From: a bacterium OL-1
Lineage (GTDB): Bacteria; Actinomycetota; Coriobacteriia; Coriobacteriales; Atopobiaceae
Direction of reading: 5' to 3'
Assembly: GCA_000752675.2 (NCBI GenBank)
Contig: LM994625.1
Coordinates: 427,940-491,939, forward strand
DNA: 64,000 nucleotides
In this document: positions 30,093 to 33,890 of the stretch, piece after piece
Layout: the number at the start of each line of letters is the position of its first letter
How positions within the stretch are numbered: position 1 is the stretch's first letter
Translations under genes and position numbers: made by a program
Notes under the pieces: generated by a model
What the model was told of the DNA's origin: nothing
Database searches by the model: none
Seen by the model: the letters and a program-made list of their open reading frames with translations, nothing else

Positions 30093-30935
30093 ATGTATAA
30101 GATCCTCGAAAAGACGCAGTTCTCGGAGAAGGTGTTCAAGTTCCGCATCGAGGCGCCGGAAATGGCCAAGCACGCACACGCTGGCCAGTTCCTCATGGTT
30201 CGCGCCAACGAGACCGGTGAGCGCGTGCCGTTCACCTTCGCGGACTGGAACCCCGAGGAGGGCTGGGTCGAGTTCATCTTCATGGTGGTCGGCAAGACCA
30301 CGAAGATGCTCTCTACGTACGAGCCCGGCGACGCCATTCTCGACGTCACCGGCCCGCTGGGACAGCCCACGGTCATGGCCCCTGGGACCACCTGCGTCAT
30401 TGGTGGCGGCGTTGGACTTGCCATCGCGTACCCCGTTGCGCGCACGCTGGTGAAGACCGGCCACGAGGTTCACGCCATCATGGGCGCCCGCACCAAGGAC
30501 CTGCTTCTTCTCGAGGATCAGTTCCGCGAGCTTCTGCCCGACGACCACATCCACATCACCACCGACGACGGCTCCTACGGCGAGAAGGGCGTGGTCACTG
30601 CCCCGCTCGAGCGTCTGCTCCAGGCCAAGGCCGTCGACGAGGTCTTCTGCGTTGGCCCCGTCCCCATGATGAAGTTCTCCACGCTCACGGCCGAGAAGTA
30701 CGGCACCCCCATCACCGCGTCGCTCAACCCCATCATGGTCGACGGCACGGGCATGTGCGGCTGCTGCCGCGTCGAGATCGACGGCAAGACCAAGTTTGCC
30801 TGCGTCGACGGTCCCGACTTCGACGCAACCAAGGTCGACTGGAACGACCTGCGCGCGCGTCAGGCTGCATACCGTACCGAGGAGGGCCAGGCCCTCAAGG
30901 CCTATGAGGAGGCGAACTGCGCATGCCACAGGTAA
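30093..30935 (+). CDS. nfnA: Ferredoxin-NADP+ oxidoreductase small subunit (NfnA type)
   Basis: FAD/2Fe-2S subunit of a soluble NADH-dependent reduced ferredoxin:NADP+ oxidoreductase, a flavin-bifurcating enzyme that balances NADH, NADPH and ferredoxin in anaerobes. 280 aa. The FAD-binding barrel comes first ('RVPFTFADWNPEEGW'), then the nucleotide-binding part ('CVIGGGVGLAIAYPVAR'). The C-terminal cysteine cluster 'GTGMCGCCRVEIDGKTKFAC' binds the 2Fe-2S centre. The same architecture is annotated as PyrK/sulfide dehydrogenase-like; the partner gene decides for Nfn. It overlaps nfnB by 13 bp. Confidence 0.9.
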   Translation: MYKILEKTQFSEKVFKFRIEAPEMAKHAHAGQFLMVRANETGERVPFTFADWNPEEGWVEFIFMVVGKTTKMLSTYEPGDAILDVTGPLGQPTVMAPGTTCVIGGGVGLAIAYPVARTLVKTGHEVHAIMGARTKDLLLLEDQFRELLPDDHIHITTDDGSYGEKGVVTAPLERLLQAKAVDEVFCVGPVPMMKFSTLTAEKYGTPITASLNPIMVDGTGMCGCCRVEIDGKTKFACVDGPDFDATKVDWNDLRARQAAYRTEEGQALKAYEEANCACHR

Positions 30936-32329
30936 ACGGTCGCTTTGTTCCCGACATGAAGTCCCCGCGCACCCCAGACAACGAGGAGCCGGCGGAGGAG
31001 CGTGCCCACGACTTCCGCCCCGTCGACAAGGGCTTCACCAAGGAGATGGCGCTGGCCGAGGCTGAGCGCTGCATGGACTGCAAGAAGCCCCTCTGCGTCG
31101 AGGGCTGCCCAGTCAACATCAAGATCCCTAAGTTCATCGAGAAGATTCGCGAGCAGGACTTTGGCGCCGCTCTCGACATCATCCACGAGGACTCGATGCT
31201 CCCCGCAATCTGCGGCCGCGTGTGCCCGCAGGAGAACCAGTGCGAGGGCCGCTGCATCCGCGGCAAGAAGTCCGAGCCCGTGGCCATCGGCCAGCTCGAG
31301 CGCTTCCTGGGCGACCAGCCCGAGCTTGCCAGCAAGCCGCAGATGAAGCCCGCAAACGGCAAGAAGGTCGCCGTCATTGGCTCCGGCCCCTCCGGCATCA
31401 CCTGCGCCGGCGAGCTTGCGCGTAACGGCTTTGACGTCACTGTCTTCGAGGCATTCTTCACCGGCGGCGGCGTGCTTGTCTACGGCATTCCCGAGTTCCG
31501 TCTGCCCAAGGCAGTCGTCAAGCGCGAGATCGACGGCCTCAAGGAGCTGGGCGTCAAGTTTGAGTTCAACTCTGTTATGGGCAACCTGGCCAATGCCGAC
31601 GAGCTCCTGGGCGAGAAGGGCTTCGATGCCATTTACGTGGCAACTGGCGCCGGCCTGCCTAAGTTCCTCAACATCCCCGGCGAGAACCTGCCCAACGTGT
31701 ACTTCGCCAACGAGTACCTCACCCGCGTGAACCTCATGAAGGCGAACAAGTTCCCCGAGTACGACACCCCCACCAAGCACGCCAAGCAGGTCGTGGTCTT
31801 TGGTGGCGGTAACGTCGCCATGGACGCTGTCCGCACGGCAAAGCGCCTGGGTGCCGAGCGCGCCATTATCGCTTACCGCCGCACCGAGGCCGAGATGCCC
31901 GCCCGTCGCGCCGAGCTTCACCACGCCAAGGCCGAGGGCGTCGAGGTTATGCCGCTTGTCTCGCCGCTTGAGTTCATCGCTGGCGAAGACGGCAACGTGT
32001 GCGCCGTGAAGGTCCAGAAGATGGAGCTGGGCGAGCCCGACGCCTCTGGCCGTCGTCGCCCCATCCCCATCGAGGGCGCCATCGAGGAGATCCCCTGCGA
32101 CGTGGCCATCTCCGCCATTGGCACCAACGCCAACCCCTTCGCCAAGAAGATTGGTGGCATGGACCTCAACAAGTGGGGCTACATCGTTGCTGACGAGAAC
32201 GGCCGCACCTCCAACCCCCGCATCTGGGCTGGCGGCGACATCGTCACCGGTGCCGCAACGGTCATCCTGGCCATGGGCGCCGGCAAGACCGCCGCAGCAA
32301 GCATCACCGAGACGCTTACCGCCGAGTAG
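30923..32329 (+). CDS. nfnB: NADPH-dependent glutamate synthase small-chain-like subunit (NfnB type)
   Basis: 468 aa. N-terminal 4Fe-4S domain with Cys clusters ('ERCMDCKKPLCVEGCPVNI' at about 49-67 and 'CGRVCPQENQCEGRC' at about 96-110). The FAD-binding 'VAVIGSGPSGITCAGELA' (about 152-169) and NADPH-binding 'VVVFGGGNVAMDAVRTAK' (about 291-308) Rossmann motifs follow. This is the GltD-like large subunit of NfnAB. No glutamate-synthase large chain is nearby, so the ferredoxin-linked role is preferred. A strong terminator follows. Confidence 0.9.
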   Translation: MPQVNGRFVPDMKSPRTPDNEEPAEERAHDFRPVDKGFTKEMALAEAERCMDCKKPLCVEGCPVNIKIPKFIEKIREQDFGAALDIIHEDSMLPAICGRVCPQENQCEGRCIRGKKSEPVAIGQLERFLGDQPELASKPQMKPANGKKVAVIGSGPSGITCAGELARNGFDVTVFEAFFTGGGVLVYGIPEFRLPKAVVKREIDGLKELGVKFEFNSVMGNLANADELLGEKGFDAIYVATGAGLPKFLNIPGENLPNVYFANEYLTRVNLMKANKFPEYDTPTKHAKQVVVFGGGNVAMDAVRTAKRLGAERAIIAYRRTEAEMPARRAELHHAKAEGVEVMPLVSPLEFIAGEDGNVCAVKVQKMELGEPDASGRRRPIPIEGAIEEIPCDVAISAIGTNANPFAKKIGGMDLNKWGYIVADENGRTSNPRIWAGGDIVTGAATVILAMGAGKTAAASITETLTAE

Positions 32330-32399: not shown

Positions 32400-32454
32400 G
32401 TCTGCGGTAGCCCCCGCGGTGGAGCCTCGCCTCCAAGACACCCAAATGCAGCGG

Positions 32455-32555
32455 AAACCTGCGGCTTAGTTGCAGCTGGGCTCATGCGATGCCGAGAATA
32501 ACTGCAGGCAGATGACTTGCGGCTTTCTCAGGCACTGCTATTAAGCCGCAGGTTT
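32455..32555. repeat. 14-bp inverted repeat after nfnAB
   Basis: AAACCTGCGGCTTA (32455-32468) and its exact complement TAAGCCGCAGGTTT (32542-32555), 73 bp apart. A partial third copy (TTGCGGCTTTCTCAG) starts near 32518. The core resembles the 18-bp tandem unit upstream of nfnA. Confidence 0.75.
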
Positions 32556-32774
32556 TCTCAGTGGGCGAGCAACGCACGGCGGGATGGAGCATCGCCGCGC
32601 AGAACTATCCCCAGCAGTCGTTTTCGCACGAAATTCTTGGGTCAGGCTAGCTGTAACTGGGCAAACACCGTAAATATCAGGAATTACGTTCAATAATTGG
32701 CGTCCTCGGCCAGCGAGTTGCAGAGCCCTCGGCTTGCAGGAAAGCGGCGCACGATTGAAAGCTCGCTGCACTAG

Positions 32775-32799
32775 TGCACGAAAATGGCCTATCGGACGG
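32775..32799 (-). repeat. 25-bp repeat, copy A (minus orientation)
   Basis: Reads CCGTCCGATAGGCCATTTTC then GTGCA on the minus strand. It differs from copy B at four or so positions; it is the most diverged copy. Confidence 0.85.
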
Positions 32800-32814
32800 G
32801 ATTTTTCTTCCGGC

Positions 32815-32839
32815 TGCACAAAAGGGCCCTATCGAACGG
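32815..32839 (-). repeat. 25-bp repeat, copy B (minus orientation)
   Basis: Reads CCGTTCGATAGGGCCCTTTT then GTGCA on the minus strand. It starts exactly 40 bp after copy A. Confidence 0.9.
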
Positions 32840-32959
32840 TTTCCTCCACGCATCCTCATCAAAAGTTGAATATTATTTGCATGAATATACATATTTCTAT
32901 GAATATATGCAATTACATGCAACGTTGATTTGAAGTTTGATGTCATTGCGCGGGGGGCA

Positions 32960-32984
32960 CCGTTCGATAGGGCGTTTTTGTGCA
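32960..32984 (+). repeat. 25-bp repeat, copy C (plus orientation)
   Basis: Reads CCGTTCGATAGGGCGTTTTT then GTGCA on the plus strand, two bases different from copy B. Confidence 0.9.
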
Positions 32985-32999
32985 TCAGTCTCCATAATC

Positions 33000-33024
33000 C
33001 CGTTCGATAGAGCGTTTTTATGCA
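33000..33024 (+). repeat. 25-bp repeat, copy D (plus orientation)
   Basis: Reads CCGTTCGATAGAGCGTTTTT then ATGCA on the plus strand, exactly 40 bp after copy C, so the C-D spacing mirrors A-B. It ends about 100 bp before the barnase-like gene. Confidence 0.9.
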
Positions 33025-33126: not shown

Positions 33127-33603
33127 TTGGGAAAGCTTCACGACCTTGCACATGCGCTCGCCATCACGCTCACGGCAGTAGTGCTGAGTCTCTCTCTTGC
33201 TGCTTGCGGCAGCGGCACCGCTCAACAGGCGGATTCCCAAGACCAGCCGCAAGCCACCGCAATCTCCCGCGACGGCAGCTACACCAGCAAGGAGGACGTG
33301 GCACTCTACCTGCACACCTACGGAGAGCTTCCATCAAACTTCATCTCGAAGACAAGGGCCCGCGAGGCAGGGTGGAACCCGCAGGAGGGCAACCTCGACA
33401 AGGTCTGCCCGGGCAAGAGCATTGGCGGCAGCGTCTTCTACAATGATGACGGTGCGCTGCCGGACGCTCCGGGACGCACCTGGCACGAATGCGACATTAA
33501 CTACCAGGGCGGGCATCGCGGTCCAGAACGCATTGTGTACTCCAACGATGGCCTCGTGTACTACACGCCAGACCACTACCAGACCTTTGAGCAGCTCTAC
33601 TAG
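33127..33603 (+). CDS. Barnase-like secreted ribonuclease with lipobox
   Basis: Guanyl-preferring extracellular RNase of the barnase (N1/T1) family, 158 aa from a TTG start with GGGAGGACC upstream. Residues 1-27 form a signal peptide ending in a lipobox (LAAC, Cys27), so the enzyme should be lipid-anchored outside the membrane, unlike free barnase. The catalytic residues align by eye with barnase: E121 in 'WHECDINY', R135 in 'PERIVYSNDG' and H150 in 'DHYQTF'. The fold region begins near 'SKEDVALYLHTYGELPSNFI'. The next gene encodes its likely inhibitor. It could serve as a competition toxin or in RNA scavenging. Confidence 0.92.
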   Translation: MGKLHDLAHALAITLTAVVLSLSLAACGSGTAQQADSQDQPQATAISRDGSYTSKEDVALYLHTYGELPSNFISKTRAREAGWNPQEGNLDKVCPGKSIGGSVFYNDDGALPDAPGRTWHECDINYQGGHRGPERIVYSNDGLVYYTPDHYQTFEQLY

Positions 33604-33611
33604 GAGGAGCC

Positions 33612-33890
33612 GTGGCAACCGTGAAGATCCGTGAGGCAAGCGATGCCTCTGAGCAGGAGATATTCCAGCAGATTGCAAAGAAGCTCAGGTTTCCTAGCTA
33701 CTTTGGCAATAACTTCGCCGCGCTAGAGGACTGCCTTGGCGACATGACCGAGAGCACCCGCGTCGACGTCGTTCGCTACCGCGACGACCCCGACCCAAAG
33801 CGCCGGGCGTTTTTTGGGACCCTCTGCGCCGTGGTAGCTCGAGTGGCGCTTGAGAACCCCAACGTCCACCTTACGATGTACGAGAAGTAA
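33612..33890 (+). CDS. Barstar-like ribonuclease inhibitor
   Basis: 92-aa cytoplasmic protein from a GTG start with GGAGGAG upstream, 8 bp after the barnase-like gene. The segment 'FPSYFGNNFAALEDCLGDM' matches the barstar core ('YFGxNxDALxDCL'), which carries residues that plug the barnase active site. Binding protects the producer from any RNase that fails to be exported. It is part of a two-gene toxin/inhibitor operon. Confidence 0.92.
   Translation: MATVKIREASDASEQEIFQQIAKKLRFPSYFGNNFAALEDCLGDMTESTRVDVVRYRDDPDPKRRAFFGTLCAVVARVALENPNVHLTMYEK

Follow-up and report, generated by a model that had tools for sequence, protein, structure and literature searches.

REPINs, which belong to the REP/RAYT systems, are inverted doublets that lie in extragenic DNA and fall into several sequence families per genome; their ends are conserved, their interior is diverse, their population is maintained over long times, and singlets are its decaying remnants (PMC3116915, PMC8049555). 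To the knowledge of their authors, they are the sole sequence population that is stably maintained within prokaryote genomes (PMC8049555). MITEs, such as ERIC and the Correia-type elements, are multi-copy, non-coding, intergenic elements of about 250 bp with inverted ends. The RIB/RIP and BIME elements of enterobacteria are pairs of REP sequences around an IHF site. The ends of transposons of the Tn7, Mu and Tn5053 type hold several transposase sites.

We analyzed a stretch of 64,000 nucleotides from the genome of the bacterium OL-1 (the window) and found that a 250-bp block in it is one copy of a dispersed non-coding element, which occurs in several families across Atopobiaceae. All the properties of REPINs listed above are shared by the element. 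It differs from them in that each end consists of two 25-bp units in tandem, with a pitch of 40-41 bp, in a total of about 250 bp, and in that a family has about 10-20 copies per genome, whereas REPINs have about 100. The unit consensus, TGCAYAAAANNGCNCTATCGRACGG, read by eye, lacks the GTAG/CGTC tag and a clear hairpin, units of family 1 (F1), the family of the window's copy, are not hairpin-forming palindromes, and no RAYT was seen among the neighbours tested. The definition of a MITE by terminal inverted repeats, a length of 100-400 bp and absence of coding sequence describes the element (doubled ends, 250 bp), but its copies are only about 70% alike, its length is rigid, its ends are doubled, and neither target duplication nor an autonomous partner was found in the genomes examined. 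Like RIB/RIP and BIME elements, it consists of mirrored repeats around a conserved core at gene 3ʹ ends, with units that differ in sequence, number and spacing; the ATCAA in the F1 core is half of the IHF consensus, and only this half-motif was seen. As in the Tn7/Mu/Tn5053-type ends, each end has two same-facing units that resemble binding sites, and the outer ends read TG...CA, but there is no cargo and no transposase, and the inner units are conserved like the outer ones. Literature searches found no description of such elements. They look like a second, unrelated case of a stably maintained sequence population, in Actinobacteria.

Results

The block in the window is composed of the following segments.

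32775-32799, minus strand: unit A (outer left), TGCACGAAAATGGCCTATCGGACGG on the plus strand, found by pattern match and matrix score
32800-32814, no strand: spacer A-B, 15 bp, constant in length and variable in sequence
32815-32839, minus strand: unit B (inner left), TGCACAAAAGGGCCCTATCGAACGG on the plus strand, found by pattern match
32840-32857, no strand: link from unit B to the core motifs, variable, the least conserved segment
32858-32941, no strand: AT-rich core, a loose palindrome, F1 half-core consensus ATCAANNATNNAACTANATTTGCATNATTATGCATATTT
32960-32984, plus strand: unit C (inner right), CCGTTCGATAGGGCGTTTTTGTGCA
32985-32999, no strand: spacer C-D, 15 bp
33000-33024, plus strand: unit D (outer right), CCGTTCGATAGAGCGTTTTTATGCA

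The layout agreed with the original prediction in every part: four 25-bp copies form two mirrored pairs, A and B on the minus strand and C and D on the plus strand, with 40 bp from start to start in both pairs and 120 bp of AT-rich core between B and C; ATGAATATA occurs twice in the core, at 32881 and 32899, and the outer ends of the block read TGCA. The core also carries the mirrored motifs ATCAA (32858-32862) and TTGAT (32937-32941). The unit pattern, with four matches in the window, had none in 100 dinucleotide-preserving shuffles of it. When both halves were folded together, the F1 half-consensus of 125 bp was TGCAYAAAANNGCNCTATCGRACGG-15-TGCAYAAAANNGCNCTATCGRACGG-18-ATCAANNATNNAACTANATTTGCATNATTATGCATATTT to the centre. 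In family 1, the palindrome thus extends through the core, which is conserved as well. Spacers (15 bp) and link of F1 vary in sequence and hardly at all in length; the geometry holds nearly to the base, although the sequences of spacers and links drift.

In the window's genome (G000), which named matches place in the genus Tractidigestivibacter, the unit had 46 matches, against 2 for the reversed-pattern control, and nearly all of them lay in 11 blocks of the same layout, each with a B-to-C distance of 145 or 146 bp. One of these blocks has a fifth unit at +40 bp, a tandem copy of unit and spacer, and one unit match is a single remnant. The element was present in all eight Tractidigestivibacter genomes examined; T. 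montrealensis, T. scatoligenes, Olsenella sp. kh2p3 and the MAG RUG11916 are among the named genomes with matches. A scan by geometry plus matrix scored 67 full elements in the retrieved loci of the genus. In the most distant species (G004), the unit has drifted to roughly TGCATGAAAWCGNNNTATCGNANGG and there are about 21 copies, and G007 has a unit variant ...CTATCTAACRG beside the standard unit. Pairing and spacing were conserved in the relatives searched for the unit, and the copies were not scattered singly. Viral contigs (IMG/VR), phages and plasmids gave no match to the element.

A second family (F2), with the unit TGCAYYGAANTGCCCTTCGTTACAC, follows the same plan with other units. It was first seen where G000 and G001 lack family 1, and G000 holds at least 12 copies of it. 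A de novo scan for mirrored tandem pairs, made without any preset unit sequence, gave F3 (G128), F5 (G119), F6/7 (G137 and G140) and F9 (G131) in genus g4, F4 in genus g17 (G023) and F8 in genus g27 (G085). The sister families, which occur in this genus and in three others, are all mirrored, with a pitch of 40-41 bp and a length of 218-254 bp; each family has its own distance between the inner units (112-159 bp). With a free pitch of 30-60 or 32-55 bp, strong matches appeared at 40 only, and a later scan at 38-43 bp showed that 40 and 41 both occur; one scan made at a 41-bp pitch also gave matches, and its counts are lower bounds for the 40-bp families. No mirrored-pair match was found in 400 kb of 3-mer-shuffled control or in 140 kb scanned from genus g13 (G019), and a search of many other Atopobiaceae genomes gave no match. 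Most families have TGCRYNNAANNGC in common on the outer side of the unit and vary on the inner side, as would be expected if recognition and site co-evolve. An element in locus L276 is very like one of G140 (taxonomic family f1) although its genome, G164, belongs to another taxonomic family (f10), by transfer or contamination.

Many elements lie at the same place in several species, and that of the window is present in five, with homologous flanks. We averaged over ten pairs that are orthologous throughout: mean divergence was lowest in units (about 9%), followed by spacers (14%), the core (18%) and links (22%). Pooled conservation figures also include occupants of a gap that are not orthologous, and the orthologue-separated table was used instead. 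Conservation of the outermost units did not exceed that of the inner ones, in contrast to the tips of transposons. The rigid geometry, the constrained units and the drifting spacers together suggest that a sequence-specific protein binds double-stranded DNA at two units per half. The original prediction had read protein binding from the equal spacing, which fits a geometry that is kept and units that diverge least among orthologues. Within elements, the nested partners resembled each other more (A-D, z 3.9; B-C, z 5.3) than the crossing pairs did (A-C, z 2.5; B-D, z 0.8), which may be the result of palindrome-templated repair.

Losses occur by deletion, at times inside the element: locus L086 has lost B, core and C, L105 keeps a half, and at the L071 site there is a deletion in G000 and G006. 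Close species differ in the presence of the element at F2 sites, and where G005 lacks an F2 element of G000, the gap is deleted or different, with no target duplication. More generally, where a close relative lacked the element, the whole gap was missing or different, or a unit remnant was left. Comparison of L298/L296, L300/L306, L304/L311, L101/L294 and L071/L132 showed no precise empty site and no target-site duplication, and no clean gain of an element was seen in the compared gaps. Nearly every half-element found by profile was matched by a second half at the distance typical of the family; those without one, where examined, were remnants or contig ends. In the eight genomes of the genus, no gene was found enclosed by unpaired ends and no autonomous copy was seen, and no insertion-sequence body with unit ends was found in the genomes examined. 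The alternative guess of a MITE-like element held for dispersal, inverted ends and absence of coding sequence, but a target duplication, a clean empty site and an autonomous partner were not found; it was the nearer of the two earlier guesses, the other being a regulatory site of the adjacent barnase-like gene.

Other shared gaps had non-homologous occupants, either another F1 element or an F2 element. At four sites, that of the window included, a gap occupied by F1 in some species has F2 in others. The window's gap has F1 in five species, a complete F2 copy with an insertion-sequence-like stretch alongside in G006, and half an F2 element in G007. Exchange between F1 and F2 was found also at the L066 and L067 sites. 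At the L035/L294 site, G001 and G003 have F2 and G000 and G005 have F1, which is fused there to the one outer unit that is left of the F2 element. Similar but divergent proteins of about 325 aa are encoded at the same place beside F2 (L294:9390-10364) and F1 (L035:5326-6306); the L035 protein had no Pfam match. A stretch of about 2.8 kb in L169 (G119) is 98-99.7% identical to L067, from genomes of two genera, and includes an internally deleted F1 element, by recent transfer or because of a misassigned contig.

The genes next to the element in the window are as follows.

30923-32329, plus strand: glutamate-synthase-small-chain-like oxidoreductase (Fer4_20, Pyr_redox_2), its 3ʹ end facing the element
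33127-33603, plus strand: barnase-type ribonuclease (PF00545) with a signal-like N-terminus
33612-33890, plus strand: barstar-type inhibitor (PF01337)

Most elements lie near the 3ʹ ends of ordinary genes, in intergenic, non-coding DNA. The neighbours of F1 elements that were examined are mostly what we take, from their sequences, to be ordinary core genes, for example ilvC, argH, metK and lgt. Non-redundant F1 and F2 sites were in 10 tandem, 8 convergent and 5 divergent gaps, against 71, 19 and 26 for element-free background gaps, with genes called by our own script; convergent gaps are thus over-represented (8/23 with an element, 19/116 in the background). At these sites, stop codons were at a median distance of about 80 bp and start codons at about 150 bp. 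No transposase was found inside the elements or consistently beside them, and the sole one among the neighbours tested was an ISL3 fragment beside L102, near a contig end. A terminator hairpin was considered as a regular neighbour and rejected: some copies abut one, but there was no excess over control flanks. The left flanks of L083, L089 and L110, which represent one element site, contain variable toxin-antitoxin-like cargo (Fic and DUF4160 by Pfam, and an antitoxin-like gene by eye).

Discussion

We explain these results best by old, vertically maintained, non-autonomous elements with REPIN- or MITE-like dynamics, a different anatomy, and paired units bound by a putative trans-acting protein, an explanation for which our belief and our doubt are about equal. 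Doubled same-facing end units, dispersal, family-specific sequence and absence of coding sequence point to non-autonomous elements that are served in trans. Each half would be a tandem pair of 25-bp putative binding sites at a pitch of 40-41 bp, facing the other half across a core of family-specific length. The protein that we infer, encoded in trans and with a family-specific recognition surface, would bind the units cooperatively, two per half, and bring the mirrored halves together in one symmetric complex, as transposases with doubled end sites do. Through such a complex, the element may once have spread, by copying or by movement, to gaps close to the 3ʹ ends of genes, and the population would now be inherited vertically, with slow change, loss by deletion and constraint on the units. 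The very regular anatomy should lead directly to the binding protein.

For the alternation of F1 and F2 in the same gap at four sites, a mobile element is no obvious explanation. The non-autonomous elements favoured here leave this reoccupation by different families unexplained; no other argument for a host function is as good, and the exchange offers a natural experiment on selfish persistence versus host function. The elements could be host chromosome-architecture sites, that is, anchors or insulators downstream of genes (for a nucleoid protein, gyrase or a loop anchor) for which any family serves, so that the family could change at a site that retains an element. This rival is to be taken seriously, if on the whole improbable: same-gap coincidences should be rare at about 12 or more F2 copies per genome, and the convergent-gap bias, the unit constraint among orthologues and the constant length within a family all agree with it, but elements were lost without replacement in close relatives (the L071 site; F2 sites in G005), many other Atopobiaceae genomes gave no match, and species within a single genus have different unit families, which is more typical of selfish elements. 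A family-wide anchor system, in which interchangeable elements are required at gene ends and bound by fast-diverging paralogous proteins with replaceable specificities, seems doubtful to us.

It is unlikely that the units are recombination boundaries, exchange points for small cassettes of an element and its neighbour gene, beside which variable genes (for example toxin-antitoxin or barnase pairs) would gather. At L035, G000 is homologous to G001 and G003 on the left as far as a point within the F2 outer unit fused to F1, the junction runs across a short CAYAAAAA similarity, and beyond it the element is different and so is the allele of the neighbouring protein; the L034 site is flanked by DUF4160 (G001) or Fic (G003) genes. 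However, a single such junction was seen, other replaced sites lose homology near gene ends rather than at units, and illegitimate recombination needs only short similarity. Paired sites about four helical turns apart, with the barnase gene 103 bp downstream, had suggested a regulator of that gene, but the core genes beside other blocks have unrelated functions, and the gaps are convergent, tandem and, in a few cases, divergent; many are convergent and have no start codon towards the element, and regulated genes in a shared downstream position were not found. The barnase-operator reading is thus unlikely, and a regulatory region of neighbour genes in general very improbable. We give equally little credence to an RNA element transcribed as a long hairpin, in which A would pair with D and B with C, such as a two-way terminator; it would account for the excess of nested over crossing resemblance, but so can palindrome-templated repair, and the T run of F1 is absent from F2 units, the spacers are not complementary, and the loop would be 120 nt. 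No Rfam family reached the gathering score, and the matches, far below it, reflect AT-rich palindromes.

Other similarities near the elements

The barnase/barstar stretch (33127-33890) has matches also in G004, G006 and G007, and that in G004 lies about 9 kb from the match to the upstream gene. Another mirrored repeat, GGCGCAAAAGCGCTTCGAATGGACG, adjoins an F8 element in G085 (L225:1215-1415). To the left of the element in the window, at 32450-32560, there is a second dispersed repeat of about 105 bp with the inverted sequences AACCTGCGGCTTA...TAAGCCGCAGGTT; G006 and G007 contain at least eight relatives.
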